Positions 7,383 to 52,641 of a stretch of 64,000 nt of DNA are shown here, piece after piece (position 1 is the first letter of the stretch; each line of letters opens with the position of its first letter). Source of the stretch: Octadecabacter arcticus 238 (GTDB lineage Bacteria > Pseudomonadota > Alphaproteobacteria > Rhodobacterales > Rhodobacteraceae). The position numbers and the translations under genes were made by a program. Where the stretch lies: NCBI RefSeq assembly GCF_000155735.2, contig NC_020908.1, positions 1,121,001-1,185,000 on the forward strand, in the 5' to 3' direction. A model generated the notes under the pieces. The model did not search any database and had not been told where the DNA came from. It worked only from the letters and a program-made list of their open reading frames with translations.

Positions 7383-7393
7383 AAGGAATTGAG

Positions 7394-33619: not shown

Positions 33620-33653
33620 CCCGACAGTCGATACGCAGTATCGTTGAGAGGGG
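33620..33653 (+). repeat. Palindromic repeat family, copy 1
   Basis: CCCGACAG box, inner stem CGATAC-GCA-GTATCG, then TGAGAGGGG. It interrupts the IS3 OrfA frame between SSGLT and the QVSSDLG part. Confidence 0.75.
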
Positions 33654-33724
33654 CGACGCAGGTATCATCAGATTTGGGCGTTGGCCTTTCGACGCTAAAC
33701 AAGTGGGTTCAACAACATCCGGCG

Positions 33725-33763
33725 CCCGGCAGGGTATTGCGCAGCAATGTCCCGAGAGGGAGC
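33725..33763 (+). repeat. Palindromic repeat family, copy 2
   Basis: CCCGGCAG box, inner stem TATTGC-GCA-GCAATG, then CCCGAGAGGG. It lies directly after the NKWVQQHP segment of the same IS3 remnant. Confidence 0.8.
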
Positions 33764-33960
33764 ATGATGATTTGATGATCGTCATTTGAGCGCCATTGGT
33801 CCAAGTGAAGATGGCGATGGCCGCATGAGGACGTTGAGAAGGAGAACACCCGCCTTAGCAAATAAGTCCGGCTGCTGCGTGAGGAGAGGTAAGTGCTAAA
33901 GTGGAGGCGTTGGCAATTGATCCAGTGGATCATTTGTCGCCGATATCGCGGCGATCCACT

Positions 33961-33997
33961 GACCGGCAGGGCATTGCGCAGCAATGTCCCGAGAGGT
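33961..33997 (+). repeat. Palindromic repeat family, copy 3
   Basis: ACCGGCAG box, inner stem CATTGC-GCA-GCAATG, then CCCGAGAGG. It is close to copy 2 in sequence. Confidence 0.8.
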
Positions 33998-34014
33998 TCT
34001 TTGCAGGCCAGAGC

Positions 34015-34051
34015 CCCCTCTCGTGCATGTAAACATGCACTGCCGGGCAGT
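34015..34051 (-). repeat. Palindromic repeat family, copy 4
   Basis: Read on the minus strand: TGCCCGGCAG box, inner stem GTGCATG-TTTA-CATGCAC, then GAGAGGGG. The stem sequence shares nothing with copies 1-3 yet pairs perfectly. It is 17 bp from copy 3, in opposite orientation. Confidence 0.8.
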
Positions 34052-34128
34052 GGGTGGGTAATCCTCCCGAAAAATGGTCGTGCTGAAAGCTAGAATTTTC
34101 TCGGCAGGATAAGCTAAGGAGATTTACG

Positions 34129-34250
34129 ATGAAGAAATCACGTTATTCAGAGGCCCAGATTGTCGCGGTTTTGAAAGAAGCTGAGAATGGTGTGCCTGTA
34201 TCTGAACTGTGCCACAGCCATGGAATGAGCAGCGCTGCGTTTTACCAGTG
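34129..34250 (+). pseudogene. Second IS3-family OrfA remnant (5' part only)
   Basis: [40 protein letters not shown] is the start of an IS3-type OrfA with its helix-turn-helix, preceded by AAGGAGATTTACG. The similarity ends at about 34250, where IS30 transposase sequence begins without a gap. It is a junction created by insertion or deletion. Confidence 0.75.
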
Positions 34251-34254
34251 CCAG

Positions 34255-34600
34255 GCCCAGACTTTCCCCGTGAGCGATAAATCTCTGACCTGGGATCGCG
34301 GTAGAGAGCTGGCAGACCCTCCGCGCTTCACAATGGCAACCAATGTTAACGTCTACTTCTGCGACCCGCAGTCGCCCTCTCGGAAGATTGCTACGCAATC
34401 GCCTGCCGGGCAATGCATGGCAACGCGGATCGAACGAAAACACCAACCGGCTTTTGAGGCAGTATTTGTCAAAAGGAACCGACTGATCCAGCCTTTCTCA
34501 GGCGAAACTCAGCGCAATCGCAAGGCAACTCAACGAACGTCCTCGCAAAACCTTGCAATATCCCCCCCCCGCGGAGAAGTTTGCGGAGTGTGTTGCGTCG
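34255..34600 (+). pseudogene. IS30-family transposase C-terminal remnant
   Basis: [33 protein letters not shown] is the second half of the IS30 integrase core. After palindromic repeat 5 it resumes in a shifted frame as [24 protein letters not shown] and [14 protein letters not shown], ending with PAEKF...CVAS near 34600. A run of nine or more C (about 34562-34570) lies near the end. The 5' half is missing. Confidence 0.78.
34375..34412 (-). repeat. Palindromic repeat family, copy 5
   Basis: Minus-strand reading: TGCCCGGCAGGC box, inner stem GATTGC-GTA-GCAATC, then CCGAGAGGG. It is inserted in the IS30 gene between CDPQSP and WQRGSNEN. About 40 nt are added, so the downstream frame is shifted by one. 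Confidence 0.85.
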
Positions 34601-34632
34601 ATCAGTTGAGACTGCCGCTCAAGCAGACCTTA

Positions 34633-35758
34633 AAGGCTTATACCCTTTGCTCCGGCGACACTTGATGTAGTGCGACGCGGCTTGCCAATCTATAATGTTC
34701 TGGAATTGTTCTACCTAGGCCAGCCAGGTGGAAAAACGACAAACCCATGTCCCGCCCGGCGTTCGACGCCAGGTTTTGTGATGAGGAAGCCTGTTCGCAT
34801 TATCTGGCGGAACATCGTTGGCCTGAGGGCTTCGTGTGTCCGTCCTGTGGCACCTGCAAGGGCTGGCCGTTAAAGCGAAATCGCGCGACTTGGGAATGTG
34901 CCGGTTGCGCACGGCAGACATCCGTGACGGCTGGCACGGTAATGCACAGCAGCCATTTGCCGTTGCGAATTTGGTTTCTTGCCGCGCACATCATCACCAG
35001 CCATTCCAACGGCATGTCAGCGCTGCAACTTCAGGCGCAACTTGGCCTTGGCAGCTACAAGACGGGTCGCCATCGTCGCTCGGACCGATGGCGCTTCTCG
35101 GCGACCTCCTCTTGCAAAAGCTGCGGCGGTCGATGGTCAACCCTGACCGCAACCCCCTAAAAGACCTTGTCGAAATCGATGAAACAGAGATGCCGTTCCG
35201 GTCCCGGCATGATCCCGAGGACCGGCCAAAGGGTGGGCGCAGCCCGGTTGGAGAGATGTTTGTCGTCTGTGCCGTCGAGTTATCAAGTGACGGACATCCG
35301 CGCCGTATCAGGATGAAACACATTCCCGACGGCGCGTCAAAGACGCTGCACGGGTTCATTGGTCAGGCTGTAGAGCCTGGCGCTCACATCATCACGGATG
35401 GCTGGCTCGGTTACGAAAATCCTCCTGCAAACACGCATGAGGCAAAGGTCGTCAGCGGCAAAAAGGCACACGACATACTCCACTGGGTCCACCGCGTGTT
35501 CTCCAACCTAAAAACGTGGGCAAAAGGCGTCTTCCACGGCCTCAGAAAGTGCCATCTACAACGCTATCTCGACGAATTCGTGTTCCGCTGGAACCGACGG
35601 CGACACATGCGAAGCGGCTTCGACACGCTGCTGGGGATCGGTGTTGGTCTCGGGCCAGCGACATATCGTGATGATCCGATCCGCCTCTCAAGCCACAAGG
35701 GCGAGGTTCTGCGCCACGTCAACATGTGCGGCAACCGGACTAAAAGGGATAAGCCTTT
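34633..35758 (+). mobile_element. IS1595-family (ISXO2-like) element, decayed
   Basis: The ends AAGGCTTATACCC (left) and GGGATAAGCCTTT (right) form terminal inverted repeats. The element is flanked on both sides by AGACCTTA (34625-34632 and 35759-35766), an 8-bp target duplication, which fits IS1595. Its length is 1,126 bp. It landed just behind the IS30 remnant. Confidence 0.85.
34747..35757 (+). pseudogene. ISXO2-like transposase, frameshifted
   Basis: The N-terminal zinc ribbon is clear (CPSCGTCKGW, then CAGC), followed by TSVTAGTVMHSSHLPLRIWFLA and LQAQLGLGSYKT in the frame from 34747. The catalytic half is in another frame from about 35105: KLRRSMVNPDRNPLKDLVEIDETEM, HIITDGWLGY and HRVFSNLKTWAKGVFHGL (DDE/N type). 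At the break (35070-35109) about 40 bp with internal complementarity (CGCCATCG / CGATGGCG, outer GTCGCC / GGCGAC) replace a few expected codons. The C-terminus also looks decayed and runs out of the element. Confidence 0.8.
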
Positions 35759-35847
35759 AGACCTTATTTGCAGTGACGATGCGATATTCGCCTTTGGAAC
35801 TTCCGCGGCAACTCAGAAAGGTTTGGCGGTAATTTTTGGATGCTGGC

Positions 35848-37488
35848 TCAGGTTTGTTCAACCAGGTTTTTCGCGCGCTCACGCAGGACGAATTTCTGGA
35901 TCTTACCAGTTGAGGTTCTGGGGACACTCGTTACCACAAATCTTCCTGGAACTTTGTAGGCAGCGAGCCTGTCACGGCACCAAACGCGCAGCGCGTCTGT
36001 ATCGATCTCTTGGCCCAGCGTGGCTTCGATAAAGGCGCAAGGCGTTTCGCCCCATTTTTCATGGGGCATGGCGACAACCGCTGCAATTTCTATGGAGGGG
36101 TAACTATAGAGCACCTCTTCTATCTCGATAGAGGAAATGTTCTCGCCACCCGAAATGATAATGTCCTTCGAGCGGTCCTTGAGCTGGATATAGCCATCGG
36201 GATGTACCACTCCCAGATCGCCTGAATGGAACCACCCGCCCTCAAAGGCCTTTTTAGTGGCCACGGGATTACGGAAATACCCCTTCATCACGACATTACC
36301 GCGAAACATCACTTCGCCCATTGTTACACCATCGCGCGGAACAGCGTGCAGTGTTTCAGGGTCAAGCACGTCAAGCCCTTCGAGGGGGAGGTAGCGCACG
36401 CCCTGACGCGACTTGAGACGCGCCTGTTCATCGTTGGGCAGGGACGACCAGCTTTCATGCCAGTCATTCACAACGGCTGGACCGTAGGTTTCGGTCAGCC
36501 CGTAAAGGTGGGTTACGTCGAAGCCAGCCGTTTTCATATCCGCCAGCAGCTTTTCAGGAGGCGGAGCGGCGGCGGTGAAGAATTGCACTGTATGATCAAG
36601 TGTCCGCCGCGCATCTACGGGCGCAGCGATCAGCAGCGACATCACAATTGGCGCGCCGCACAGGTGTGTCACATTATCATCGGCCAATGCGTTCCAGATC
36701 GGCTCGGCGCGTACTTGGCGCAGGCAAACGTGTGTGCCAATGATGGCAGAGAGTGTCCACGGGAAGCACCAACCGTTGCAGTGAAACATCGGCAGCGTCC
36801 AGAGATAGACTGCGTGTTTGCGCATCGACGTGGTGATCGCGTTGCCTTGTGCCAAAAGATATGCGCCCCGGTGGTGCGAGACGACGCCCTTTGGGTCGCC
36901 CGTTGTGCCGGACGTGTAGTTGATCGAGATCGCGTCCCATTCGTCTGCGGGCATGAGCCAAGCGAAGGCCGGATCACCATCTGCAAGGAAGGATTCATAG
37001 CCTCCCCCATCAAACGCCGCCTTTGCACCTTCATATTCAGGATCATCAACCTGTATCACCAGCGGGCTGACCTCGGCCAGCGCCAACGCCTCTTGCATCA
37101 GTGGCATGAACTCGGCATCCACGATGATGATCTTTGACATTGCATGATCGAGCTGGAAAGCAATGATCGCCGCATCAAGCCGCGTATTGATCGAATGGAG
37201 AACGCCCCCGCACATTGGCACACCATAGTGACATTCCAGCATGGCTGGCGTGTTGGGCAGCATGGCCGCCACAGTGTCGCCCCGCCCGATACCGCGCTGC
37301 GTAAGGGCAGAGGCAAGTTGCCTTGAGCGCGCATAAAACGTGGCGTAGTTGCGGCGCAGCTTGCCATGAATGATCGCCGTATGATCCGGGAAAACCGCGG
37401 CCGCGCGCTCCAGAAAGGTGAGCGGTGTCAGCGGCTGGTGGTTTGCCGGGTTGCGATCCAGATCGGTGTTGTAAGGGTTTGAAGTCAT
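35848..37488 (-). CDS. AMP-forming acyl-CoA synthetase (candidate MMPA-CoA ligase)
   Basis: Adenylate-forming ligase of 546 residues that activates a carboxylic acid with ATP and CoA. The P-loop-like motif is INYTSGTTGDPKGVVSHHRGAYL; LYGLTETYGP, GWFHSGDLGVVHPDGYIQLKDRSKDIIISGGENIS and the C-terminal lysine in PRTSTGKIQKF are present. The family includes medium/short-chain ligases. Because the operon starts with a DmdA-like gene and holds an enoyl-CoA hydratase, a role as methylmercaptopropionate-CoA ligase (DmdB function) is plausible but not proven. It is the last gene of the cluster, 3 bp after the hydratase, and its end faces the IS1595 remnant. Confidence 0.88.
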   Translation of the reverse strand: MTSNPYNTDLDRNPANHQPLTPLTFLERAAAVFPDHTAIIHGKLRRNYATFYARSRQLASALTQRGIGRGDTVAAMLPNTPAMLECHYGVPMCGGVLHSINTRLDAAIIAFQLDHAMSKIIIVDAEFMPLMQEALALAEVSPLVIQVDDPEYEGAKAAFDGGGYESFLADGDPAFAWLMPADEWDAISINYTSGTTGDPKGVVSHHRGAYLLAQGNAITTSMRKHAVYLWTLPMFHCNGWCFPWTLSAIIGTHVCLRQVRAEPIWNALADDNVTHLCGAPIVMSLLIAAPVDARRTLDHTVQFFTAAAPPPEKLLADMKTAGFDVTHLYGLTETYGPAVVNDWHESWSSLPNDEQARLKSRQGVRYLPLEGLDVLDPETLHAVPRDGVTMGEVMFRGNVVMKGYFRNPVATKKAFEGGWFHSGDLGVVHPDGYIQLKDRSKDIIISGGENISSIEIEEVLYSYPSIEIAAVVAMPHEKWGETPCAFIEATLGQEIDTDALRVWCRDRLAAYKVPGRFVVTSVPRTSTGKIQKFVLRERAKNLVEQT

Positions 37489-37491
37489 ATC

Positions 37492-38292
37492 TCAGGCGTC
37501 CTGCCATTGGGGCGCGCGCTTTTCGATGAAAGCGCCGATCCCTTCCTGCGCATCATGCGCCAGCATGTTGTCGACCATCACCTGAGAAGCGTAATCATAG
37601 GCTTCGGCAATCGGCATTTCGCGCTGCGCATAAAAGGCGCGCTTGCCTGTGGTTAGCGTCATGCTTGATTTGGAGGCGATCTTGCGGGCCATTTCGGTTG
37701 TTGCGTGTTGTAGCGTGTCTTCGGACGTAACGCGGTGGATCAACCCGATCTCGGCGGCGCGGGCGGCTGGGGTCATGTCGCCGGTCAGGAGCATTTCCAT
37801 CGCATGTTTGTTGGCTACATTGCGCGACAGGGCGACCATAGGTGTAGAGCAAAAAAGGCCAATATGAACCCCTGGCGTGCTGAACTGCGCCGTGTCTGCT
37901 GCGATGGCCAGATCGCAGGTGGCCACCAGTTGGCAACCCGCCGCCGTGGCGATGCCTGTGACTTCGGCAATCACGGGCTTGGGGCAGTTGAGGATGCCCT
38001 GCATCACGCCTGAGCACATGGACATAACCTTAGCGAAATATGCCTCACCACCATCCGGCCCGCGGCGCCCCGCTGTCATCTCTTTTAGGTCGTGGCCCGC
38101 GCAAAACGCCGGACCGTTCGCGGCAAGGATAATCACCCGCACAGCAGGATCACGCCCCGCCTCAGAGAAGGTTGTGCCAAGCGCGCTCAACATCGCTTCC
38201 GAGAGCGCGTTGCGCCGTTTCATATCATTGAGCGTCAGGCGCAGAATGCCGTCATCGCTCAGATCACGCAGTAGAATATCGCTCGACGCCAA
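37492..38292 (-). CDS. Enoyl-CoA hydratase/isomerase family protein
   Basis: 266 residues with the crotonase fold. ANGPAFCAGHDLKEM and KPVIAEVTGIATAAGCQLVATCDLAIAADTAQFSTPGVHIGLF hold the oxyanion-hole regions. The Glu of the usual second catalytic pair is not evident in this region, so hydratase versus other crotonase chemistry is open. The start is set as TTG 38292 (LASSDILLRD): AAGGAG lies 6 nt before it, and no ATG is nearby. In this operon it could act on methylthioacryloyl-CoA or another acyl-CoA intermediate. Confidence 0.85.
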   Translation of the reverse strand: MASSDILLRDLSDDGILRLTLNDMKRRNALSEAMLSALGTTFSEAGRDPAVRVIILAANGPAFCAGHDLKEMTAGRRGPDGGEAYFAKVMSMCSGVMQGILNCPKPVIAEVTGIATAAGCQLVATCDLAIAADTAQFSTPGVHIGLFCSTPMVALSRNVANKHAMEMLLTGDMTPAARAAEIGLIHRVTSEDTLQHATTEMARKIASKSSMTLTTGKRAFYAQREMPIAEAYDYASQVMVDNMLAHDAQEGIGAFIEKRAPQWQDA

Positions 38293-38314
38293 AGGGCGGC
38301 TCCTTAAATCAAGC

Positions 38315-38764
38315 TTAGCGGATGTTGATCTCAACACTGTCCACAAGGGTGTTTGCAATAAAGCAATAGCGGTGCGCGCGCTCTTGCATCTCGTCCATTT
38401 GCGCATCGGTTACGGCAAAGCCCGTGTCGAAACGCACCACGGGATGAAGGTCAATCCGCGTGACCGACATTTGCCCTTTGGGGTTTTTACCAAGATGTGC
38501 CTCGGCATAGTCGTGATAGCTTGCCACCCGCCAGGCCGCTTTCGCCGCCAGCGCGAGAAAGGTCATCATGTGGCAGCTAGAGAGCGCTGAGGCCAGCGCC
38601 TGTTCGGGGTTTGTATTTGCCGGATCGCCACCCCAATCGGGGGCGGAATCCACGATAATATCATATAATCTATTCATCTGCACGGTATGTGCGTTTGAAT
38701 ATGTGCCTGTTGCAAACACGGGCTCGGCGCGCTGCCAATGCAGTTCGATGGAAAGATCTGACAT
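38315..38764 (-). CDS. OsmC family protein
   Basis: A 149-residue OsmC/Ohr-like protein. The two conserved cysteines of the family are placed as ALASALSSCHMMTFLALAAKAAW (first Cys at about 60) and AHRYCFIANTLV near residue 132. The family reduces organic peroxides with a Cys pair. It sits between the DmdA-like gene and the hydratase in the same direction, suggesting protection from, or handling of, reactive sulfur or peroxide by-products. Confidence 0.88.
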   Translation of the reverse strand: MSDLSIELHWQRAEPVFATGTYSNAHTVQMNRLYDIIVDSAPDWGGDPANTNPEQALASALSSCHMMTFLALAAKAAWRVASYHDYAEAHLGKNPKGQMSVTRIDLHPVVRFDTGFAVTDAQMDEMQERAHRYCFIANTLVDSVEINIR

Positions 38765-38846
38765 AACTGAAATCTCTTATGATGATGTGGAATGCTGCAG
38801 CGCATGCACCCCGGGGAGCATACGCGCTGCTTGTGATCTAGGTAGC

Positions 38847-39989
38847 CTACGCTGCCGCAATCTGCTTCTTTGGGTCGTAGAACGGACGCTCGACAACAGT
38901 AGCCTTAGTCGGACCGGACTTTGTCACAACTTCCACTTCGGCCCCTATCACCGCCGCATCTGCCGCAACCATCGCCAGGGCTATGTTTTTCTCAAGGCGG
39001 GGCGAATAGACCGCCGATGTCACCTTGCCAATATCTGCGCCGCCTTGGTTAATCGTCCAGAACATGGTGTTCGGGCCTGTGAGCGGCTCACAATCAATCA
39101 CCAGACCAACTTGCTTGCGCTTGGGGCCTTCGTCCTTGATGCGGCGCAGTGCAGCCTTGCCGATGAAATCCGCGTCCATGTCGAGGTTCACAAGGCGGTC
39201 AAAGCCCAACTCGTAAGGATTTGTATGAATGTCCGCATCTGCATGATACGACAGCATGCCGCCTTCAATCCGGCGAATGGAGGAGGTGTGACCGGGTTTG
39301 AGACCATATTCCATGCCTGCCGCCATGATCCGCTCCCAAAGTAGATCGCCTCTTGAGCCATCGCGCAGGTAAAGTTCGTAGCCGAGCTCGCTCGACCAGC
39401 CGGTGCGCGACACGACGAGCGGGATGCCATCCAACTCGACTTCGCGGAGCCAGTAGTATTTAAGGTCCATGATGCTCTCGCCAAAAAGCTCTTGCATGAT
39501 CAGGCCCGAGTTTGGCCCCTGAAGCTGGAGCGGTGAGACATCAGGTTCGACAATCTGCACATCCATACCCGAATGCACAGCAACGCCTTGCGCCCAAAGC
39601 AGGATGTCGCTGTCTGCCAGCGAAATCCAGAAATGGTTTTCCGCAAGACGCAGCAGGATCGGATCATTCAGAAGGCCACCATCCGCATTTGTAATCAGTA
39701 TGTATTTGCACTGGCCCACGGCCATCTTCGACAGATCACGCGGCGTCAGGATCTGCACGAATTTTGCGGCATCCGGCCCGGTGATTTCAACCTGGCGTTC
39801 GACGGCCACATCACACAGGATCGCCTTGTCCACAAGGTTCCAGAAATTCTGCTCAGGATCACCAAAGTCACGCGGAATATACATATGATTATAAACAGAA
39901 AAACCCTTGGCGCCCCAGCGAACCGTTGCATCGAAGTAGGGTGATTTGCGGATTTGTGTGCCGAAGCCAAAGTCATTTGCTTGTGTCAT
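38847..39989 (-). CDS. DmdA-like aminomethyltransferase (candidate DMSP demethylase)
   Basis: A 380-residue protein of the glycine cleavage T / GcvT fold, tetrahydrofolate-dependent. Features shared with DMSP demethylase as I recall it are GFSVYNHMYIPRDF, CDVAVERQVEITGPDA, LLTPRDLSKM-like QILTPRDLSKMAVGQCKYILITNADGGLLNDPILLRL, ISLADSDILLWAQG, and RTGWSSELGYELYL. Related non-DmdA paralogues exist, so the exact substrate is uncertain. It is the first gene of an apparent operon with OsmC, hydratase and ligase, and an Lrp-type regulator lies just upstream; this fits conversion of DMSP to MMPA and then to a CoA thioester. Confidence 0.78.
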   Translation of the reverse strand: MTQANDFGFGTQIRKSPYFDATVRWGAKGFSVYNHMYIPRDFGDPEQNFWNLVDKAILCDVAVERQVEITGPDAAKFVQILTPRDLSKMAVGQCKYILITNADGGLLNDPILLRLAENHFWISLADSDILLWAQGVAVHSGMDVQIVEPDVSPLQLQGPNSGLIMQELFGESIMDLKYYWLREVELDGIPLVVSRTGWSSELGYELYLRDGSRGDLLWERIMAAGMEYGLKPGHTSSIRRIEGGMLSYHADADIHTNPYELGFDRLVNLDMDADFIGKAALRRIKDEGPKRKQVGLVIDCEPLTGPNTMFWTINQGGADIGKVTSAVYSPRLEKNIALAMVAADAAVIGAEVEVVTKSGPTKATVVERPFYDPKKQIAAA

Positions 39990-40149
39990 ATTTACGCCCT
40001 CATAGCAGGTGGCCTGACCGGCCAGTGAAGTGTTGAAACCTGCTATGATTTAGCTTGAATTACGAAAAATTCTTGGTCTGATAACGTGCGCCATTTAGGC
40101 CGATCAGACCGATTATGGGGCCTCGATTAGCCCGTTCAGTCTTTGAGGG

Positions 40150-40641
40150 CTATTTCTGGCTCTTTGTGATCAGTTTAGTCAGATTGGGCTGGCTGGTTTT
40201 GACCTGACGAGTCGCAATGTATATCATGTAGCGATCAATCGCGAGATCGGACGAAAGCATCTCATCGATGAGCGCCTGAAAGGCGGCAAGGCTTGGCGTA
40301 GCCGTTTTCATCACGTAGTCCACGCCGCCACCGGTCGCGATGCAATCCGTCACCTCGTCAAGATTTCGGATGTAGCCTTCAAAGCGATCAAATTCTGCTT
40401 TGCGGTGCGAGCCGAGAGAGACAGTCACCACAACCTGCGTGAAATCAACGATGCGTTCCAAAGCTAACTCAGCGTGATAGCCACGGATATAGCCCGCAGT
40501 CTTCAGCCGGTCCAAACGTGCCCAGCACGGGGTGGGCGACAGGTTCACGAGCTCGGCCAACCTTGCCTTACTAAGTTGCCCGTGCTGCTGGACAGCGCTG
40601 AGGATACGAATATCCGTGGCATCAAGGCCGAGCTTCTTCAT
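40150..40641 (-). CDS. Lrp/AsnC family transcriptional regulator
   Basis: 163 residues from MKKLGLDATD. The N-terminal winged helix reads DIRILSAVQQHGQLSKARLAELVNLSPTPCWARLDRLKTAGYI, followed by the RAM/AsnC ligand-binding domain (VVVTVSLGSHRKAEFDRFEGYI, VTDCIATGGGVDYVMK). ATG 40641 is chosen; the open frame to 40707 lacks support. It lies 160 bp upstream of the DmdA-like gene in the same direction and probably controls it, sensing a small amino-acid-like ligand. Confidence 0.9.
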   Translation of the reverse strand: MKKLGLDATDIRILSAVQQHGQLSKARLAELVNLSPTPCWARLDRLKTAGYIRGYHAELALERIVDFTQVVVTVSLGSHRKAEFDRFEGYIRNLDEVTDCIATGGGVDYVMKTATPSLAAFQALIDEMLSSDLAIDRYMIYIATRQVKTSQPNLTKLITKSQK

Positions 40642-41285
40642 GCGCGTGTTTCTTTCACTTGGTCGAAGTGGCGGTTGCCCGAGTTTCCCTGAGAATAACC
40701 TTCCCATCTAATCTCAGCCAAATAACTGGATTTGGCACACACCTTTCCGACCTATTCTCCCATAATCGCGCCAACAACTCCTTGCTGCGCTTCGTCTCGA
40801 TTTATAAATAGCGGCCAAGGTTGGGGGGGCAGAAGAAGGCGATGGATAACGCGAACACGATGTACGCTGTGGGGGCTTGTCAGGTCGTTTTGTGCGGCAC
40901 GCCGACCCTAGAGCAAATGCAGTGACCCGTTGAAACCGCACCATAGACCGACGTTTCAGCCAACAAAATGCTGGGCTGCGGATGAATGACATGGTGTGTC
41001 TGTGGATGCCGCTCTCCTTGGGCAAACGAGGTACAGTATACTGGCTTCGGCCCATCTCGGCGATGCACGCATCGCCTACCGTCGCGATATGCGCTGCGGC
41101 CAGCACAAAACCGCCCTTGTTTATGCGAGGTTCGGGGCGCCGCCGAGACGGCGAACGCTACTAAGGATCTATGTCGGCAGATCACTACTTGGGCGATATA
41201 TGTGCCGTCGCTTTGATCCAGCATTCGTAGGCTTGACCTGAATCGAAATGAGACAACAGCCAAATTAACGGACTTCCCCATATGC
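40642..41285. other. Intergenic region without recognisable gene
   Basis: About 640 bp between the Lrp-type regulator and the DCC-family gene. Open frames exist on both strands (up to about 140 codons), but none has a recognisable family, ribosome site or consistent codon use, and several overlap each other. It may be the decayed remains of a former gene. I see no repeat copies, tRNA or strong terminator. Confidence 0.5.
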
Positions 41286-41738
41286 TTACTTCGGGACGTT
41301 TCGCGCACTCAAGCGTCCCACAGCCTTTGATATGAACGGACGGATCGGCAGAAATGCGCGATACCCGACCTCAAGCACCGGCAATACGCCGCGGACCCTG
41401 GCCGCACGGGCGGCCCACTGCCAGCCCGGTAGCGTATCCCAGACCTCTACAAACGCCCGTGCGCCCGAGACGAGTGAGCCATCTGATCGGCGAACATGGA
41501 ACCGCCGCATTGCTGTATCAGACGTAAGATCAGCGCCAAGTCGGGCATCGTTGCGGGATACATCGATAAAGCCCAATTTGTCGCCACCCACACGAGACGC
41601 GTAATGATCTATTTCAATCGAACACAGTGCACACGACCCGTCAAAGTAGATGGTCGGCCCATTTTTAAACGCTTGGTCTGGACTGCTATTCTCTGGATTG
41701 CTCCGGATTTCGATCACATCATTGTCGTTATGCTGCAT
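41286..41738 (-). CDS. DCC-family thiol-disulfide oxidoreductase-like protein (DUF393)
   Basis: 150 residues from MQHNDNDVIE. The signature DGSCALCSIEIDHY holds the DxxCxxC motif of the family (about residues 33-40), followed by LGFIDVSRND and the aromatic C-terminal helix VLEVGYRAFLPIRPF. The biochemical role of the family is unclear. Its start overlaps the RegA-type regulator gene by 11 bp, so the two form an operon. Confidence 0.88.
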   Translation of the reverse strand: MQHNDNDVIEIRSNPENSSPDQAFKNGPTIYFDGSCALCSIEIDHYASRVGGDKLGFIDVSRNDARLGADLTSDTAMRRFHVRRSDGSLVSGARAFVEVWDTLPGWQWAARAARVRGVLPVLEVGYRAFLPIRPFISKAVGRLSARNVPK

Positions 41739-42279: not shown

Positions 42280-42315
42280 AATTTTTTTCCTTTGTTATAG
42301 ATACGCCGGAGATCG

Positions 42316-45106: not shown

Positions 45107-46491
45107 GCAAGTGTAAAAGGCGGCCCTGAAGCTGACTTCAACAGGCCGCCCATGGTTGATCGAGCCACGCGCTGCGCCACAACAAGCGAAAGGACCCAAC
45201 CGCTTGTAACGGCAGTTGCGATCCCCAACCAGACACCCCAGACGCTGAAATCCAGCACGCTGATGAACATCCACACGAAGAACGCGACACCGAAGCCTTG
45301 TCGGTAGATGCTGATCCAAAGCGTCCAGATAGGTTTCTTAAGCGCCTGAAGGAGCGAGTTGATCGAAAACAGCATCATATAAATAGGGAACAAAAATGCG
45401 TCGACCCGCAAATAACTGAAACCAACGCGGATGACTTCTGGATCGTCCGAAAACAGCGACATCGCCTTTCCGCCACCAAATAGGAGGATTGGGGTCGCAA
45501 TCAGGGTCATCGCGAACCCAGTTTTCCAACAGAACAGCACTGCCGCGCGAACGCGATCGAAGTCTTGAGCGCCAAAATTCTGTCCTGCGATCGGCAGCAA
45601 GGCACCTGTCATTCCAAGAACTGGAAGCAGCAGAATTTGCTCGATCCGCAGCGCGATACCGTATGCTGCAACCGCGTGCCCACCAAATTCCTTGAGCGCG
45701 AATTGCACTACAAAGCCTGACACAAACATAACCATCATCGCTGAACTAGCGGGGATCAGTTGCCCAATGATCTGCATAAAGCTGGCGCGGTCTGGCCAGA
45801 ATGCGGCGAGGTTAACTGAACGCATCATCTCAAGTTTCAGAATGCGTGTGATGATAAAGATCATGACGCCTGTCTGGCTGATGATCGTGGCGACAGCGAT
45901 GCCGTTGAACCCGATACCGTTCCAAATGCCGTCGATCCCAAACATCAAAAGCGGGTTCAGCCCGATGTTGGCAAGAAATGCCACCATCATGGCCCGCTGC
46001 ATTGTGCGGCTATCACCATGTGCTTGCAAAATACCGTTGCCGCCGTAAGCGAGAAAAAAACCGGGTAAGGCAAGGATCAGAAACTTGAAGTAACCTAAAG
46101 CTGCATCTCGGTATGCACCCGGTTCAGAAACAAGGTTGATCAGCAATGGTCCGATGAACCAACCGATGACCATTGACACAAAAGTCGCGATTATGCCAAA
46201 AGATAGACCCTGAGCGGCAAGGCGTTGGGTCTGGGAATTGTCACCGCTGCCTTTGGCATTTGAGACCAACGCACTGAGTGCGGAACTGAGGCCAAAGCCA
46301 ATGGCCATCAAGACAAAGAAAGCTTGGTATCCGATTGCAAGGCCAGCTTGCGCGTCTGTCGAAAGTCGCCCTGCCCAATAAACGTCGACGACGTTATATA
46401 ACGTCGCAAACAGCATTCCTAATGCAGCGGGGATTGCAAGAGTACGGAAATGGGTCGCCATCGCACCCTTTGTCAGATCTTCAGTTTGCAT
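45085..46491 (-). CDS. MATE family efflux transporter
   Basis: A 468-residue transporter with twelve predicted membrane helices. MATE features are the N-terminal PAALGMLFATLYNVVDVYWAGRLS and the repeat in the second half, GFVVQFALKEFGGHAVAAYGIALRIEQILLLPVLGMTGALLPIAGQNFGA. It probably exports small molecules in exchange for Na+ or H+. The ATG overlaps the stop of the ABC permease (TGATG), which puts it in the amino-acid ABC operon. The last residues are encoded by the end of the IS6 remnant, so the native C-terminus may be changed. Confidence 0.92.
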   Translation of the reverse strand: MQTEDLTKGAMATHFRTLAIPAALGMLFATLYNVVDVYWAGRLSTDAQAGLAIGYQAFFVLMAIGFGLSSALSALVSNAKGSGDNSQTQRLAAQGLSFGIIATFVSMVIGWFIGPLLINLVSEPGAYRDAALGYFKFLILALPGFFLAYGGNGILQAHGDSRTMQRAMMVAFLANIGLNPLLMFGIDGIWNGIGFNGIAVATIISQTGVMIFIITRILKLEMMRSVNLAAFWPDRASFMQIIGQLIPASSAMMVMFVSGFVVQFALKEFGGHAVAAYGIALRIEQILLLPVLGMTGALLPIAGQNFGAQDFDRVRAAVLFCWKTGFAMTLIATPILLFGGGKAMSLFSDDPEVIRVGFSYLRVDAFLFPIYMMLFSINSLLQALKKPIWTLWISIYRQGFGVAFFVWMFISVLDFSVWGVWLGIATAVTSGWVLSLVVAQRVARSTMGGLLKSASGPPFTLAAVLSDK

Positions 46492-47234
46492 CAGGTATCA
46501 CTAGCTTTCAGGCGTCGCTCGAACCAGCGCACGCCAGCAGAAACAATGAGGATTAGGACAAGATATTCCAGAACCAAAATGGTATAGATTTCGAGGGGCC
46601 GGTATTCTGATACAACCAACTCGTTGGCCTTGCGTGTCAATTCTTGCAGTCCGATCACGGAGACCAGCGACGACATCTTCAGCATATACACGAGCTGGTT
46701 ACCCAACGCAGGCAGGATACGCCGGATCGCTTGAGGTAAGATAATATACCGCATCGTGTCGCGGTAATTCAGGGAGACAGACTGCGCCGCCTCGTATTGG
46801 CCGCGTCCGATGGACTGGATGCCTGCGCGAAAGATCTCAGCTTGAAAGGCACTGTCGCTGAGGGCCAAAGCTAAAACACCAGCCCAAAACACGCTAAGTG
46901 TGATGCCCGAAACTGTAGGGAGACCGTAGTAAACCCAAAGGATCAACACGAGTATTGGCACTGAGCGCACTATTTCGACATAAGTTCGGTTAAACATACG
47001 CCAGCCGCGTTTTTCCGATAGGCCTGGAAGGGCAACGAGAAGGCCCACAACGACTGAAATCAAGATCGCCGTAACCGAAATCAAGATCGTGTAGTAGGCG
47101 CCAAAAGCCATAAATTTTAGATTAGTCCAGCCCGACGATGTTGTCGGGTCGACCACATACCAGCCCCAATTGCCGGAACAGCCTGAGAGTAGAAGCAAGA
47201 TTGAGGTAAGGATCAAACATTTCTTCATGGTCAT
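46491..47234 (-). CDS. Polar amino acid ABC transporter permease
   Basis: 247 residues. The permease domain (about 45-240) has the HisM-type pattern and the EAA loop EAAQSVSLNYRDTMRYIILPQAIRRILPAL for contact with the ATPase. Unusually, the N-terminus MTMKKCLILTSILLLLSGCSGN looks like a lipoprotein signal with a lipobox (LSGC). Either the start is further in (for example at MAFGAYYTIL) and the upstream part is chance, or the permease carries a lipoprotein-like leader. It is cotranscribed with the ATPase upstream (4 bp) and the MATE gene downstream. Confidence 0.9.
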   Translation of the reverse strand: MTMKKCLILTSILLLLSGCSGNWGWYVVDPTTSSGWTNLKFMAFGAYYTILISVTAILISVVVGLLVALPGLSEKRGWRMFNRTYVEIVRSVPILVLILWVYYGLPTVSGITLSVFWAGVLALALSDSAFQAEIFRAGIQSIGRGQYEAAQSVSLNYRDTMRYIILPQAIRRILPALGNQLVYMLKMSSLVSVIGLQELTRKANELVVSEYRPLEIYTILVLEYLVLILIVSAGVRWFERRLKASDT

Positions 47235-47238
47235 TCAC

Positions 47239-47973
47239 CTAATGGTTCAAGATTTGTTTGATGAATTTCTCAAAACGCTTAGATTTAGGCGCGTTGAATA
47301 CGTCTTGCGGTGCGCCAACTTCGACGATCTCGCCTTTGTCCATAAACACCATCCGATCAGCGACACGGCGGGCGAAACCCATCTCGTGTGTGACGACAAT
47401 CATGGTCATACCGCTCGACGCCAGTTCGGTCATCACGTCAAGGACCTCTGCGATCATTTCAGGATCCAATGCCGATGTTGGTTCATCGAACAACAATATC
47501 CGTGGCTCCATACAGAGCGACCTGGCAATCGCAACACGTTGTTGTTGACCACCGGAGAGCTGGCGCGGAAATTTATCAGCCTGTTCAGAGATCTGCACCC
47601 TTTCAAGGTAAGTCATGGCCCGTTCACGTGCTTGGATCTGCGTCAGTCCAAGAACACGGCGGGGTCCCAGACACAGGTTGTCCAAGACTGTCAGGTGCGG
47701 AAAAAGATTGAACTGCTGGAAAACCATGCCAACATTGCTACGGACTTTTTCAAGGTTAGCAGGGTCAGCTGTTAGGGTCGTGCCATCGACCACAATGTCG
47801 CCAACTTCATGTGCCTCTAGGCCATTGATACAGCGGATCAAAGTAGACTTGCCTGATCCCGAGGGACCACAGATGACAACGCGCTCACCTAGGGCCACAT
47901 CTAGAGAAACGTCCTTGAGTGCTTGGAAGTCCCCAAAGAACTTTGATACGTCGCGCATTGATATAATGGTCAT
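47239..47973 (-). CDS. Polar amino acid ABC transporter ATPase
   Basis: 244 residues from [14 protein letters not shown], of the GlnQ/HisP type. Walker A is GPSGSGKST, the Q-loop [10 protein letters not shown], the signature [15 protein letters not shown], Walker [13 protein letters not shown] and the H-loop VVTHEMGFA. The start at 47973 is preferred over the longer open frame to 48012. It pairs with the permease 4 bp downstream and with the divergent binding protein gene at 48104. Confidence 0.95.
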
Positions 47974-48103
47974 GGCAGCCGCGCTCCTATTGGTCTTACA
48001 AAACAACGACATGTTGCAGATTTTTATTATTATGTCACGCCATCTGCATTTCCTATTAGCGCTACCGTCCTAAGTTCAACATAGTACTTTGAAAGGGAAA
48101 CCA

Positions 48104-48883
48104 ATGAAATTCTTCAAAATAGTCGCTGCTGCGGCCCTCCTCGCGACAGGTGCCGTACAGGCATCTGCACAATCTGCCTTGGACGAAATCCTATCTGGAG
48201 GCGTTCTTAAAGTAGGCACAACGGGCGACTGGAACCCGATGACGATGCGCGACATCGCAACAAATTCATATGTTGGCTACGATATCGATGTCATGACCGC
48301 GCTAGCCAATGATTTGGGTGTCGAAATCGAATTCGTACCGACAGACTGGAAAACTCTGGTCGCTGGTGTGACGTCTGGTCAATATCACATAACAGGATCG
48401 GCGTCGGTATCGCCAGCCCGTGCCAAGGCAGCCGGTTATTCCGACAGCTATTTTTCGCTCATGACTGTGCCACTTACATTGCGAGAGAACGCCGATCGTT
48501 TTACCAGCTGGGATGATTTGAACGTTGAAGGCGTGTCCGTGGCTGCAACGCTTGGCACCACCCAAGAAGGACAAGTCAAACAGTACTTCCCCGAAGCAAC
48601 ACACCGCATCGTAGAAGCGCCGGCTCGCGATTTTCAAGAAGTTCTGTCAGGCCGTGCGGATGCTAGCATCACATCAAACATCGAAGCTGCTACGCTTGTT
48701 GAGCAATATGAAAATCTGATTATTATTCCAGTCGATGCTGGGCGTTCGCCAACACCGGTTGCGATGTTGTTACCGCAAGCAGATCAGGTTTGGATTAATT
48801 ATGTAAACACATGGATCGGCCTCAAGCAGGAACAAGGTTTCTTTGACGATCTTGGCGAGCAGTGGGGTTTGAACGCCGAATAA
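48104..48883 (+). CDS. Transporter substrate-binding protein (SBP family 3)
   Basis: 259 residues with signal peptide MKFFKIVAAAALLATGAVQASA. The family 3 binding-protein fold is indicated by GVLKVGTTGDWNPMTMRD, SYVGYDIDVMTALANDLGVEIEFVPTDWKTLVAGVTSGQYHI and LGTTQEGQVKQYFPEA. It resembles the cyclohexadienyl dehydratase-like branch of amino-acid-binding proteins. It is divergent from the ATPase gene, with 130 bp of shared promoter region. ATG 48104 follows GAAAGGGAAA. A terminator follows. Confidence 0.9.
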   Translation: MKFFKIVAAAALLATGAVQASAQSALDEILSGGVLKVGTTGDWNPMTMRDIATNSYVGYDIDVMTALANDLGVEIEFVPTDWKTLVAGVTSGQYHITGSASVSPARAKAAGYSDSYFSLMTVPLTLRENADRFTSWDDLNVEGVSVAATLGTTQEGQVKQYFPEATHRIVEAPARDFQEVLSGRADASITSNIEAATLVEQYENLIIIPVDAGRSPTPVAMLLPQADQVWINYVNTWIGLKQEQGFFDDLGEQWGLNAE

Positions 48884-48908
48884 TCCAATCCTGACGACTA
48901 AGGCATTT

Positions 48909-48940
48909 GGGCCAGTCCAACGCGGCTGGCCCTTTGCATT
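48909..48940 (+). terminator. Terminator after the binding protein gene
   Basis: GGGCCAG (48909-48915) pairs with CTGGCCC (48926-48932) around a 10-nt loop, followed by TTTGCATTT. It is a short but clean stem in the 78-bp gap before the GST gene. Confidence 0.65.
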
Positions 48941-48961
48941 TCTGCTACTCGGAGGTTCTAC

Positions 48962-49609
48962 ATGCTGACAATTTATTCGGTTCCTGTTGCGGTCTATTGC
49001 GCAAAATTGCGCATCATGTTGCGTTATAAATCCATCCCGTTTGAACAACTACCCCCACCGGGCGGATACGGGTCAGATGAATACCGTGCAATCGTTCCGT
49101 CTGGCAATCTGCCTGCAATGATCCACGACGGGTTCATGTTGTCTGATTCCGAAGCAATTGCTGAATATCTGGAAGAAACATTCCTTGATATGCCAATGCT
49201 GCCAAACACTGTGAAATTACGCGCAAAAGCACGCGAATTCAGTCGGTCACACGATACGCGTTTGGAACCCGCGGTGCGGGCAATCTATCCGCAAGTCGCG
49301 TACCTTACCCGTGATGCAGACGCGGTGCAGATAGGAGGGCTTACAATCTCCAAACACCTGTCATCCCTCGCATTGTTATTGGAAAAAAATCCCATGGACA
49401 CGAACAAGCTGTGGCTATGTGATTGCGGATTTACAGTAACTTTTGCTTGGATCAGGGCGTTTCAGGATGCCGTCAATCTTCCAGTCGAATGGCCACAGAT
49501 CGTGACTGACTACGAGATGCGCCTTAAGGAATTCGAAGTGGTTTCTAGCGAATTGGAAGCCTACCGTCCTGCGATGGACGCGTATTTGGAAAAAGCCAAA
49601 CCCGCCTAG
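48962..49609 (+). CDS. Glutathione S-transferase family protein
   Basis: A 215-residue protein. The N-terminal thioredoxin-like domain reads TIYSVPVAVYCAKLRIMLRYKSIPFEQLPPPGGYGSDEYRAIVPSGNLPAMI and LSDSEAIAEYLEE, which contains the glutathione-binding Ser-Glu pair. The all-helical C-terminal domain follows. The ATG follows CGGAGGTTCTAC. The substrate is unknown. The gene ends about 200 bp before the second IS graveyard. Confidence 0.9.
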   Translation: MLTIYSVPVAVYCAKLRIMLRYKSIPFEQLPPPGGYGSDEYRAIVPSGNLPAMIHDGFMLSDSEAIAEYLEETFLDMPMLPNTVKLRAKAREFSRSHDTRLEPAVRAIYPQVAYLTRDADAVQIGGLTISKHLSSLALLLEKNPMDTNKLWLCDCGFTVTFAWIRAFQDAVNLPVEWPQIVTDYEMRLKEFEVVSSELEAYRPAMDAYLEKAKPA

Positions 49610-49814
49610 ACGCACAACGGGTCAAAGCAGGACGACATGTCCAAGTCGGTTGATCGCTCAATGAAGGTGTAAGGTAAACACCAAGGGAACCCCCTTGTTT
49701 GGGCCCGGTTTGATCTGGGCTTCTTGTGCGAAGCTGTTATTTGGCCGGCGTAATGGGTTTGGATTTTATGATGAGCTAGGGGCCGCGGAGACATAATTAT
49801 CAGCACGGCCTTGA

Positions 49815-50490
49815 TCAAGCAGCGTCTTTTGCCTCGGCCTCGGCGGTTTTAGCGTTGATCATGTCCTGATAGGCCCACGGCATGAGATCGTTTATACGGT
49901 TTGCTGGATGGTCCTGGATGCGTTCCAGCACCCAAGCAAGCCAGGCTTCGGGATTTACCTTGTTCATCTTGGCTGTCTCAATGAGGGTATAGGCGATGGC
50001 GGCAGATTTACCGCCTGCTTCTGATCCCATGAAGAGATAGTTTTTACGGCCAACGGCCACAGGGTGCACTGCGTTCTCAGCTGTGTTGTTGTCCAACTCA
50101 AGAAAGCCGTGATCGAGATAGGGACGTGCCTTGGGCAGGCGGGCAAGCGCATATTTGATCGCCTTGGCCAGCGGCGTCTTGCTGGAGATTTTACCCAGTT
50201 GCTCTTTAAGCCAGACCTCTAGGTCGTCAAAGATCGGTTTGGCGTATTCCTGACGCAGGGCCACGCGTTCAGATGCTGGCAGGAACCGCGCTTGTGTCTC
50301 AACATCATAGAGCTTTTTAATCCGCAGCACAGCTTCGCCAGCTACAGGCAGCTTTGTGCTTTCATAAAGATCAAAGATCTCACGTCGCACATGCGCGATA
50401 CAGGCCATCTCTTTGATGCGTCCCGTTCGGTACGCGTCATTATACCCAGCATAGGCGTCCGCATGGGCAAAGCCTTCATAGGTAGCCGGT
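49815..50490 (-). pseudogene. IS66-family TnpC, C-terminal fragment A
   Basis: About 225 residues of the end of an IS66 transposase: ADAYAGYNDAYRTG, CIAHVRREIFDLYE, GFLELDNNTAENAVHPVAVGRKNYLFMGSEAGGKSAAIAYTLIETAKMN and DLMPW. The N-terminal two thirds are missing. The fragment abuts an unrelated IS66 fragment in the opposite orientation at about 50490-50503, so one interrupted or recombined with the other. Confidence 0.82.
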
Positions 50491-50502
50491 GGCGTCGTCG
50501 AA

Positions 50503-51270
50503 CACATTCTGGCCCGGCTCAATGAAGGCGGCGTTCGGCATCTGGATGAGACCGGACTTCGTGTTGATGGTAAGCTGCACTGGCTGCACTCAATCAGCGA
50601 TCTCGCCTTCACGCATTATCGCATCAGCGCCAAGCGCGGTGCTGTTCCATCCTTCCTGACCGGCGGGACAATTGTTCATGACCACTGGAAGTCCTATTAC
50701 GCCCATATGAGTGGGGTGGACGCGCACGCCCTGTGCGGGGCGCATCATTTACGGGAACTCAAGGCCATCGAAGAAATCGAAAAGGAGCCGTGGGCGTGCG
50801 CGATGAGCGTGCTGCTCAACAGCGCCAATCAGCTCAAGTGCGCGGCTCAGGGGCGAGGCGAGACCGAACTCCCCACGTCGGTTCACCACGGCATCCTCAC
50901 CAAATACATGGCGATCCTCACCGAGGGCCTCGCCTTCCATGAGCGACAAGACCCACTGGCTAGACGCACTGGTGCGCGAGGCCGAAAAGCCAGGCGGCCA
51001 GGCCATAACCTTCTGGTCCGCTTGCGCGACTACCGTGATGACGTCCTAAGGTTCCTTACGGACTTCACAGTTCCCTTCACCAACAATCAGGCCGAACGGG
51101 ACCTGCGCATGATGAAGTTGCGCATGAAAATCTCGGGAACTTTCCGCACCCTCGAGGGCGCGCAGGTCTTCGCTGACATCAGATCCGTCATCTCGACGGT
51201 CAGAAAACACGGGGGCAATATCCTCGAAACACTCACCCTATCACCACAACAGATCATCGCTCGGCTCTAA
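50503..51270 (+). pseudogene. IS66-family TnpC, C-terminal fragment B
   Basis: From HILARLNEGGVRHLDETGLRVDG through HALCGAHHLRELKAIEEIEKEPW and TVPFTNNQAERDLRMMKLRMKISGTFRTLEGA to SPQQIIARL and its stop. It is a different IS66 lineage from fragment A. The N-terminal part is missing, so no complete transposase can be made. Confidence 0.82.
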
Positions 51271-51322
51271 CGTCGCAAGGGCAACACAAAACCCGATATC
51301 CGATGGGGTCCTTGGGAGTTAC

Positions 51323-51945
51323 GAAAAAAGGCCTGATCACACGATCAAGATCTGCGCCCCAAAAGCGCAAGTGTAATTTTTCCAAGGGGCATGCCAAGGG
51401 ATGGAAATATAGGGATTACAAAGATATTGTGGTTGGCGAGCGTGTGCAGATCGATCATATGACTGCCACGAAGAACGGCGTCACGTGCAAACACTTTCAA
51501 GCCTGGGAGAGGTGTAGCAAGCATATCCACGCGCAAGTTTATTCGAATGCCACGGCACGCTCTGCCAAACGGTTTTTGCAAGAACTCGTGGAAATAGCTC
51601 CCTATAAGATCATCTCAATTCAAGTCGATGGCGGGTCTGAGTTTATGGCCGATTTTGAGACAGCGTGCGAACAGATGGAGATCCCGCTCATTGTGCTGCC
51701 GCCAGCAAGGCCAAAATACAACGGTGGTGTCGAGCGCGGTAACCGCACCTTCCGCGAAGAGTTCTATGCATGTCGTGATCTCATTGCCGACAGCATAGGA
51801 GCGATGCGGTTTGAACTTCGAAAAGCCGTCGATAAATACAACACATTCAGGCCTCATCATGCCTTGAAAGGCAAGACACCAATGGAGTACATTCGAATCA
51901 CTCAGGCCAAAGTCGTGTGAGTCTCAAAACACCTGAACCTATACA
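51323..51945 (+). mobile_element. 5'-truncated copy of the IS481-like element
   Basis: Matches 17283-17905 base for base by eye, with one visible C to T difference at 51372 that changes Arg to Cys. The right inverted repeat is kept; the left 512 bp, with the start of the transposase, are missing. The rest of the transposase frame is open and an ATG-like start at 51303 lies in foreign DNA. It is in direct orientation with the full copy 34,040 bp away. Confidence 0.85.
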
Positions 51946-52163
51946 TGGGAGAGACTGTCGTTGACCAAAACGCCGAACTGAGACATGATTCAAACGTGTC
52001 GAGATACCTCGATGCGACAATGATCTGACGCCAAATCAACCAATCGTTCCGCGCATAGGACGTTATCACTGACGATACAGGCGGGCTTTCCATAGACGCG
52101 CACAAGCGCATCCAGCTCGCGTGCCGCCCTCGCACCAGAGATGCTGGTGTCGGCCATCCGTTG

Positions 52164-52202
52164 CCCGGCAGGCGATTGAAAAGCAATCTGCCGAGAGGGG
52201 GC
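52164..52202 (+). repeat. Palindromic repeat family, copy 6
   Basis: CCCGGCAGGC box, inner stem GATTG-AAAAG-CAATC, then TGCCGAGAGGGGG. It interrupts the IS3 OrfB between CCRENL and ADTSISGAR. Confidence 0.82.
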
Positions 52203-52297
52203 ACAGGTTCTCGCGACAGCAATCGTCATTCACGGCCAACATACGGAACTTGCGTGATGCGCCAAAGGTGTCGGACACAAAGTCCAGCGATCCCGCT

Positions 52298-52335
52298 GAC
52301 CGGCAGGTGATTGCAAGCAATCACCGAGAGGGGGC
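52298..52335 (+). repeat. Palindromic repeat family, copy 7
   Basis: GACCGGCA box, stem GGTGATTGC-AA-GCAATCACC, then GAGAGGGGG. It interrupts OrfB between PGER and SLDFVSD. CGCT occurs on both sides (52294-52297 and just after the G-run), a possible 4-bp target duplication. Confidence 0.85.
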
Positions 52336-52497
52336 GCTCGCCAGGACGCAAAGCCACTGGCATCGACGTGCGCGATCCCCGCGCACGTTTGCGGCCCCTT
52401 CGCCGCCTGACGCCAAGCTTTTCTTCAGTATAGAGGCGATACAGCTTCTTGTGATTCATGGTCATTCCTTTGCGTTCCAACAGCACGCCGATCCGGC

Positions 52498-52532
52498 GCT
52501 TCTCGGTGATTGTTAACAATCACCTGTCAGCC
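52498..52532 (-). repeat. Palindromic repeat family, copy 8
   Basis: Minus-strand reading: CTGACA box, then GGTGATTGTTAACAATCACC, a perfect 20-bp palindrome, then GAGAAG. It lies between RRRFGY and RRIGVLLERKG of OrfB; about 39 nt are added. Confidence 0.85.
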
Positions 52533-52601
52533 AATGGATAGCCGAACCGACGCCGCTTGCTGGCAATCGCCTTCATCTCTTCGCGAACCTCTGGATTATC
52601 T

Positions 52602-52641
52602 CCCTCTCACCGAAACTGCGTTTCGACTGCCGGGCAGCGGG
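52602..52641 (-). repeat. Palindromic repeat family, copy 9
   Basis: Minus-strand reading: CTGCCCGGCAG box, stem CGAAAC-GCA-GTTTCG, then GTGAGAGGG. It lies between VRRDEP and DNPEVREEM of OrfB. Confidence 0.82.

Follow-up and report, generated by a model that had tools for sequence, protein, structure and literature searches.

The 64-kb window analyzed here (positions 1,121,001 to 1,185,000 of contig NC_020908.1 from Octadecabacter arcticus 238, a genome designated G000; other G and L numbers denote further genomes and loci) contains two groups of short palindromes, located in what appear to be remnants of transposase genes. The palindromes belong to a family of hairpin elements that is found almost only in transposase genes, within a bacterial family whose members are mostly marine. 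The element looks as if it lives in, and rides on, insertion sequences (IS), in the manner of a parasite of parasites.

All nine palindromes described in an original prediction, made from the letters of the window, were present, each within five bases of the position first called. Covariance model R1, built from copies 2, 3, 5 and 6 as seeds, recovered the nine together with a tenth (52877-52919, minus strand, E 4e-8), and only one other match at E≤10 (E 1.6) was detected in the 64 kb. With boundaries set by motif, copy 1 (33615..33652, 38 nt, E 2e-4), copy 2 (33720..33760, 41 nt) and copy 3 (33957..33997, 41 nt) lie on the plus strand in an IS3 remnant, followed on the minus strand by copy 4 (34016..34052, 37 nt, E 2e-5) and by copy 5 (34375..34415, 41 nt), the latter in an IS30 remnant. 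The host of these five copies, IS3 and IS30 transposase remnants at 33490..34700 (extent and family names as read from the letters), clusters by context with transposase loci. The second host, an IS3 transposase remnant on the minus strand (51900..53000, extent again as read), likewise falls in a context cluster and has uninterrupted homologous stretches in loci L195, L100 and L144. It carries copies 6 (52159..52199, 41 nt) and 7 (52294..52332, 39 nt, E 3e-8) on the plus strand, and copies 8 (52498..52536, 39 nt), 9 (52602..52639, 38 nt, E 1e-3) and 10 on the minus strand. Copy 10 (52882..52922, 41 nt), whose boxes are partly decayed, was absent from the first list. Homologous empty sites were evident for copy 6 in L144 (best boundary two bases off), for copy 8 in L100 (junction exact) and for copy 9 in L195 (best net length 39), while the site of copy 7 is filled in L100 and L180 as well.

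The element is a hairpin of approximately 36-44 nt, composed of CRYTGMCCGGCAG, a variable inner stem and GAGAGGG; in one orientation it reads C-R-Y-T-G-M-CCGGCAG, inner stem, loop, inner stem, GAGAGGG. The outer CCC pairs with GGG across a conserved GGCA/GAGA internal loop, and the inner stem differs widely between copies, even within one genome. The shared boxes, the two orientations and the self-pairing inner stems were as first described, and the claim that the hairpin is selected by structure was borne out by alignment A6 (71 copies, 67 distinct), in which both-side changes occur at 11 of the 11 modelled pairs, the outer CCC/GGG included. In this alignment 97.7% of the cells pair, versus 77.8% in shuffled versions and 30-70% once the partner is shifted, although the alignment was fitted to the model and its percentage therefore leans towards it. 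The single-strand folding energy is unremarkable, with z between -0.2 and -1.6 in eight of nine window copies and -3.0 in copy 8.

A motif survey, in which up to three box mismatches were allowed, so that a few entries may be false, produced 397 distinct elements. Their lengths were 41 nt (165 elements), 37 nt (61), 38 nt (50), 40 nt (42), 39 nt (41), 43 nt (21) and 42 nt (8), and the nine others measured 31, 33, 34, 36 or 44 nt. In-frame lengths were not favored: a multiple of three was observed in 14 of the 141 elements with a known frame (the in-frame element in the IS630 of L039 being an exception), by which insertion in frame, as in Rickettsia, was rejected. Relative to the host gene, 306 of the 397 elements were placed, 187 as antisense and 119 as sense, and both orientations occur even inside one gene. 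Their joint occurrence favors a process at the DNA level and disfavors removal as sense RNA.

In G000, R1 gave at least 78 matches at E≤10 (150 of 1774 candidates scored). In the G000 neighborhoods it matched 102 distinct places at E≤1, two of which are false, being native IS30 sequence on reading; the other 100 were used below as the elements of this genome. Further copies were revealed by random DNA of the same genome and by an exact pattern, and the repeat family first seen in the window thus extends to at least 100 places in G000. Model R2, built from A6, matched 88 of 198 family genomes (up to 32 candidates scored in each). The exact pattern was found in 96 of 394 family genomes, G000 included, and in one of 380 class genomes outside the family; a backward-pattern control was found in none of the 394. 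Among the matches listed (80 loci), nearly all are from Rhodobacteraceae, Paracoccaceae or genera of that group, together with two from Vreelandella and one from a Robiginitomaculum metagenome-assembled genome. The gammaproteobacterial assembly is that of Vreelandella neptunia HM116 (contig 24; L104, L128), in which the palindromes reflect either transfer or contamination. No genome with hundreds of copies, such as might have been the source, showed up in the exact-pattern counts of 394 family and 385 class genomes, the highest count being that of G000 itself (38).

Searches with one 41-nt element gave 77 plasmid records and, in the phage collection, no match. In viral contigs, where the pattern was searched in its CACTG form and not in its CATTG form, five (L445-L449) carried an exact match. 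For 44 of the 45 plasmid places listed, there is no listed gene underneath (one record is unannotated, and the gene table omits pseudogenes). On the 86-kb plasmid pDSHI04 of Dinoroseobacter shibae DFL 12 (L444, L450), three near-identical IS5 copies carry two palindromes each. The palindrome place shown in L444 is not under any listed gene, and IS of this kind are therefore easily missed. In L060 (1501-1632), three palindromes lie end to end or overlapping in approximately 130 bp, perhaps because one was inserted beside or into another.

The location of the elements was analyzed with 30 confirmed transposase fragments as queries and all palindromes masked. A transposase match lay within 600 bp of 92 of the 100 elements in G000 and of 104 of the 121 elements in named public genomes, versus 1342 of 8000 positions (17%) in 200 kb of random G000 DNA. 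The corresponding figures for zero distance, which are low owing to the masking of the element itself, were 27, 28 and 5.9%. In the same 200 kb, R2 detected four elements, all four of them within 600 bp of a transposase match. Pfam families were analyzed in 76 fragments beside elements of named public genomes, one per locus for 76 of the 80 loci, chosen for having relatives at other loci; the 25 listed of the 33 families near elements were all transposase, integrase-core, transposase-accessory or helix-turn-helix families. The host types among single fragments include IS3, IS30, IS4/IS5 types, IS630, IS66, IS21, IS110, IS256, IS6 (IS240), an IS91-like type (Y2) and a phage-integrase family recombinase, about one third of the single fragments showing no Pfam family. 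IS481 also appears among the hosts on reading. The initial view that all copies sit in IS3 or IS30 thus stands for the ten window matches, as far as their remnants can be read, and fails elsewhere, where ten or more IS types are involved.

The elements farther than 600 bp from a transposase match were largely of the same kind. Among those of G000, L030 is an IS30 by Pfam and shares its context cluster with L031 and L054; L009, L020 and L021 belong to IS context clusters, and L051 reads as an IS481. Only one of the 100 (L036:4209-4247) looks intergenic. The 17 in named genomes include transposases by Pfam (L098, L162), three elements of L169 in an IS21 unit (partly read), L110 and L164 in an IS3-like same-site cluster, L121 in another site cluster, and L099, L103, L127 and L175, which read as IS. 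L105 (a locus of 154 bases), L107, L157 and two elements in L159 have no assigned context.

Homologous IS lacking the palindrome were common. Among the elements queried, at most 231 in number (those with short flanks were dropped), 151 had some locus aligning across the joined flanks, and the proposal of a mobile unit, absent from homologous sites, was accordingly upheld. In the cleanest pair, L037 and L046, 47 of 48 flank bases match. Junctions were scored for 121 elements, of which 76 were clean and 72 non-redundant. C(A/G)YTG starts 41 of the 72, and among these position -2 is T in 37, position -1 is C in 36 and position +1 is G in 28, with a net length of 36-44 nt. The empty target is (A/G)TC^G, insertion occurring 3' of (A/G)TC and usually before G; in the logo of the 397 filled sites the information lies mainly at -5 to -1 and +1, with pyrimidines at -5 and -4. 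The RTC to the left of the element is host sequence, already in the empty sites. A CGCT duplication had been noted as possible at copy 7; the clean junctions, which are at other sites, show none. Clean junctions show no target duplication and no loss of host DNA, and insertion 3' of a short fixed sequence without duplication is a feature that the element has in common with IS200/IS605.

Many sites were occupied more than once. The 335 distinct elements examined in this respect form 53 same-site clusters, 43 of which hold more than one inner sequence, and in 32 of the 53 the inner sequences are of unequal length or disagree in four or more letters. The largest cluster has 13 members, with flanks 57-98% alike. 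In one IS5-type gene, 48 elements occupy 13 positions, and 21 of the 48 are located at YRTC^G of the reference. Several favored sites lie directly before codons that we take to specify catalytic Asp/Glu. Same-site pairs with flanks 60-90% alike carry identical elements in 17 of 294 cases, versus 0.26% of random pairs. Within one genome, identical elements were observed in IS copies with flanks 73-84% alike, at two sites in G064 and in three copies in G134. This could reflect repeated use of the same sites or copying of elements from one IS to another, two possibilities that are not fully separated by the data.

Some palindrome-bearing IS have multiplied. In G000, near-identical copies in different surroundings were found for an IS630 (three copies), an IS256 (two), an IS110 (two) and the IS of L015/L016 (two). 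Similar sets in other genomes comprise the IS5 of G035 with two palindromes (three copies), the IS3 of G075 with two to four (four), the IS3 of G013 with four (six), the IS5 of G055 with two (four) and the IS21 of G302 with three (two). Since near-identical IS in different surroundings carry the same palindromes, movement of the host IS multiplies the palindrome as well. To judge from their frames, the hosts in G035, G075 and L015/L016 are broken at further points and appear degenerate. In G013, the six copies are 98.6-99.9% identical, and the palindromes are the only breaks in the main transposase frame of all six: it is open over 308 codons in each copy if the palindromes are left out, while as is the longest frames are 213 and 165. 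No palindrome-free copy of this IS3 was found in G013 (genome 99% complete), nor any other transposase match above 36% identity over 200 residues among the 30 of 47 rve loci examined. The variable codons include five replacement and two silent changes, with no sign of selection. In G055 likewise, no palindrome-free copy of the IS5 was found; its two palindromes amount to 75 nt together, and in three of the four copies the frame is longer when they are kept. Helpers acting in trans, whether still present or lost, are a plain explanation for such multiplication. The early description of the hosts as dead transposase DNA is therefore apt for the near-confinement to transposases and for the degenerate hosts; it does not suit those IS that have multiplied, or a host such as that of G013, whose transposase frame has no other break.

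A Y1 (RAYT-like) transposase, i.e., of the type associated with repetitive extragenic palindromic (REP) sequences, had been suggested as the partner of the palindromes, a suggestion that was not sustained. In the 198 family genomes, 88 of which bear elements, Y1_Tnp was matched in 18 and Y2_Tnp in 21, and 73 of the 88 element-bearing genomes had no Y1_Tnp match. Elements are carried by 15 of the 18 Y1 genomes versus 73 of the 180 others, and by 16 of the 21 Y2 genomes versus 72 of the 177 others; any sign of IS load might show the same excess. RAYT/Y1 and Y2 partners were rejected, as there was no consistent co-occurrence with the elements in these genomes. Of ten Y1 loci (L215-L224), two (L216 and L220) contain R2 elements, that of L220 lying next to IS remnants at a distance of approximately 190 bp from the Y1 gene. 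The IS200-type Y1 gene of G000 is present in 20 copies of equal score, and the one copy read (L227, ~7330-7880) has hairpins that differ from the palindromes. The leader of this IS200 contains a long hairpin with the arms CCCTCTC/GAGAGGG, i.e., the letters of the right box of the palindrome, which is probably a coincidence.

We consider it probable, with some reserve, that the palindromes constitute a non-autonomous mobile hairpin, which is moved by hairpin-processing transposition and spread on IS. The content of the element would be the hairpin alone: conserved outer boxes with an internal loop, and an inner stem free to vary as long as it remains self-complementary. Its insertion is exact, following (A/G)TC directly and usually preceding G; it takes place in either orientation relative to the gene and neither duplicates nor removes host DNA. 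HUH single-strand transposases (IS200/IS605) insert exactly at a short one-sided target, without duplication, and recognize a hairpin. By analogy, the inserting enzyme may recognize the hairpin in folded, single-stranded form and may join it 3' of the short target, as HUH (Y1-type) transposases do for IS200/IS605 and REP elements. The palindrome is also copied onward when the host IS moves, and its confinement would result from tolerance in transposase genes together with onward spread on IS, perhaps with a further preference for sites.

Several observations weigh against this interpretation. No enzyme emerged from the Y1_Tnp and Y2_Tnp search of the 198 family genomes, and the HUH mechanism is drawn by analogy. 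Of the clean junctions, 31 of 72 start otherwise than with C(A/G)YTG, owing to an offset of a few bases or to variant letters. On an IS3 reference, 36 elements are spread over 21 positions, and five of them are at YRTC^G of the reference. The target signal, moreover, does not explain the sparing of ordinary genes and intergenic DNA. Finally, the 37 full-length copies of the G000 IS256 are of palindrome-free length, and the eight examined contained none, so that insertion seems to be rare or inactive now. This IS256 (approximately 1387 bp) is the most abundant IS seen in G000, and the palindrome-bearing IS256 shares 82-86% identity with these relatives.

The sparing of other DNA would follow if palindromes were inserted at random everywhere and lost from functional DNA, transposase genes being simply the most extensive neutral landing ground. 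Selection would act against copies in functional genes, several of the hosts appear degenerate as described above, and in-frame lengths are not favored. However, intergenic DNA is partly neutral too, yet it appears to hold a single element of the 100 in G000; the four elements in random G000 DNA were all near transposase matches; and REP families are by contrast mostly intergenic in one account (PMC3733652). We give this explanation a small chance of being correct. Another concerns spread at the same site between IS copies, by recombination or homing, such that only repeats collect palindromes. The identical same-site elements of G064 and G134, and their excess among the 294 pairs, would be expected under it. 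The differing inner stems in 32 of the 53 clusters would not, as conversion does not give such differences; the aligned flanks, inspected by eye, show no long tract of raised identity around the palindrome; and the first insertion at each site would still require an enzyme. This explanation is unlikely.

The palindromes might also be regarded as intervening sequences, either excised at the level of DNA or RNA or passed over in translation by the ribosome, with the host IS still active. They would then be the smallest known intervening elements, homing to conserved, often catalytic transposase codons, and an IS with four palindromes could still move. The open 308-codon frames and the lack of palindrome-free copies in G013 and G055 accord with this idea. 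The two orientations do not suit an RNA signal, however; the G055 frame is mostly longer with the palindromes; other multi-copy hosts appear, on reading, to carry further breaks, which makes trans helpers a plain alternative; and the G013 codons show no selection. A six-frame test of 337 elements gave frames of at least 250 codons in 71 cases after exact removal, 39-54 after shifted removal and 42 with the palindrome kept; exact removal was longer than the better one-base shift in 141 cases and shorter in 193, in a test that GC-rich DNA makes too noisy. The intervening-sequence explanation is distinctly improbable. Bypass between a take-off codon and a matching landing codon was also rejected on reading, as the ends do not fit. 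That a host system inactivates IS by placing palindromes in their transposase genes would agree with the finding of the palindromes nearly exclusively in transposase genes, which belong to many families, and with the favored sites before the presumed catalytic codons. Yet the most abundant intact IS, the IS256 of G000, is of palindrome-free length in its 37 copies, palindrome-bearing IS still multiply, and no guide or nuclease turned up, although none was searched for; such a system is very improbable. There is next to no chance that the palindromes are native parts of IS genes or chance similarities. At least one model match is native IS30 sequence, in two places, as read from the sequence, but the homologous empty sites lead to the rejection of this explanation for the elements proper, as do the empty backward-pattern control and the covariation.

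Small bacterial palindromes are usually described between genes, where their presence is explained by tolerance. The near absence of the present element from intergenic DNA and its home in the transposases of unrelated IS suggest that selfish DNA can specialize on selfish DNA. The many pairs of insertion and empty site are available for finding the enzyme, and the question is raised of how palindrome-loaded IS still multiply. The element also matters for annotation, given that its plasmid places are mostly without a listed gene.

At its gathering threshold, Rfam identified two tRNAs in the window and nothing else; these genes are in tandem (56409-56482 and 56568-56641) and have identical model scores. 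In the literature searched, which left subscription journals mostly outside, no account of transposase-confined palindromes in this bacterial family was recognized by title or abstract.

Among known systems, the palindrome-associated transposable elements (PATEs) derived from IS200/IS605 ends are inserted exactly, 3' of a fixed short sequence and without duplication, and contain a hairpin, all of which they share with the present element. They differ in that the IS200 copy read in G000 has other hairpins and most carriers have no Y1 match. Cyanobacterial small dispersed repeats and the mitochondrial byp or double-hairpin elements are likewise tiny dispersed hairpins, to which the element compares by description; byp elements lie inside genes and are skipped by the ribosome, a property that is hypothetical for the palindromes here. 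Miniature inverted-repeat transposable elements (MITEs), which have the terminal inverted repeats of a parent IS, differ from it by their target duplication, which is lacking at the clean junctions (no parent IS was looked for). The Rickettsia palindromic elements resemble it in their location inside reading frames, as partly covered in PMC3733652. The lengths of the present element are rarely a multiple of three, however, and it is mostly frame-breaking, its hosts being transposases and not housekeeping genes.

The nearest kind are the GTAG and CGTC REPs, which, according to PMC3733652 and PMC6006769, are mostly intergenic and differ in their tags. The initial comparison with REP units was apt in so far as the element, like the GTAG REPs with their RAYTs, is a short imperfect palindrome with a paired stem, many dispersed copies and no gene of its own. 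It was not in other respects: the copies lie in or beside transposase genes and are not extragenic, the inner stem is highly variable within a genome, and no RAYT flanked by the palindrome was seen. Neither a GTAG nor a CGTC tag marks the foot of the hairpin, and the copies examined share no GTAG foot. The CGTC-tagged REPs, including RPE-4 and RPE-6 of Rickettsia, occur mostly in Alphaproteobacteria and measure 20-40 bp (Di Nocera 2013, PMC3733652); in that account they are mostly intergenic, bear a CCA-like tail, have a stem that ends with the CGTC tag, and have no known dedicated transposase. They resemble the element in host class, size, lack of a known dedicated transposase and an RTC-like sequence adjoining the left end. 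The RTC of the present element, by contrast, pre-exists in the empty site, and the outer boxes and the home in transposase genes are also different. By these descriptions, the element belongs with the small mobile palindromes, apart from the REPs.

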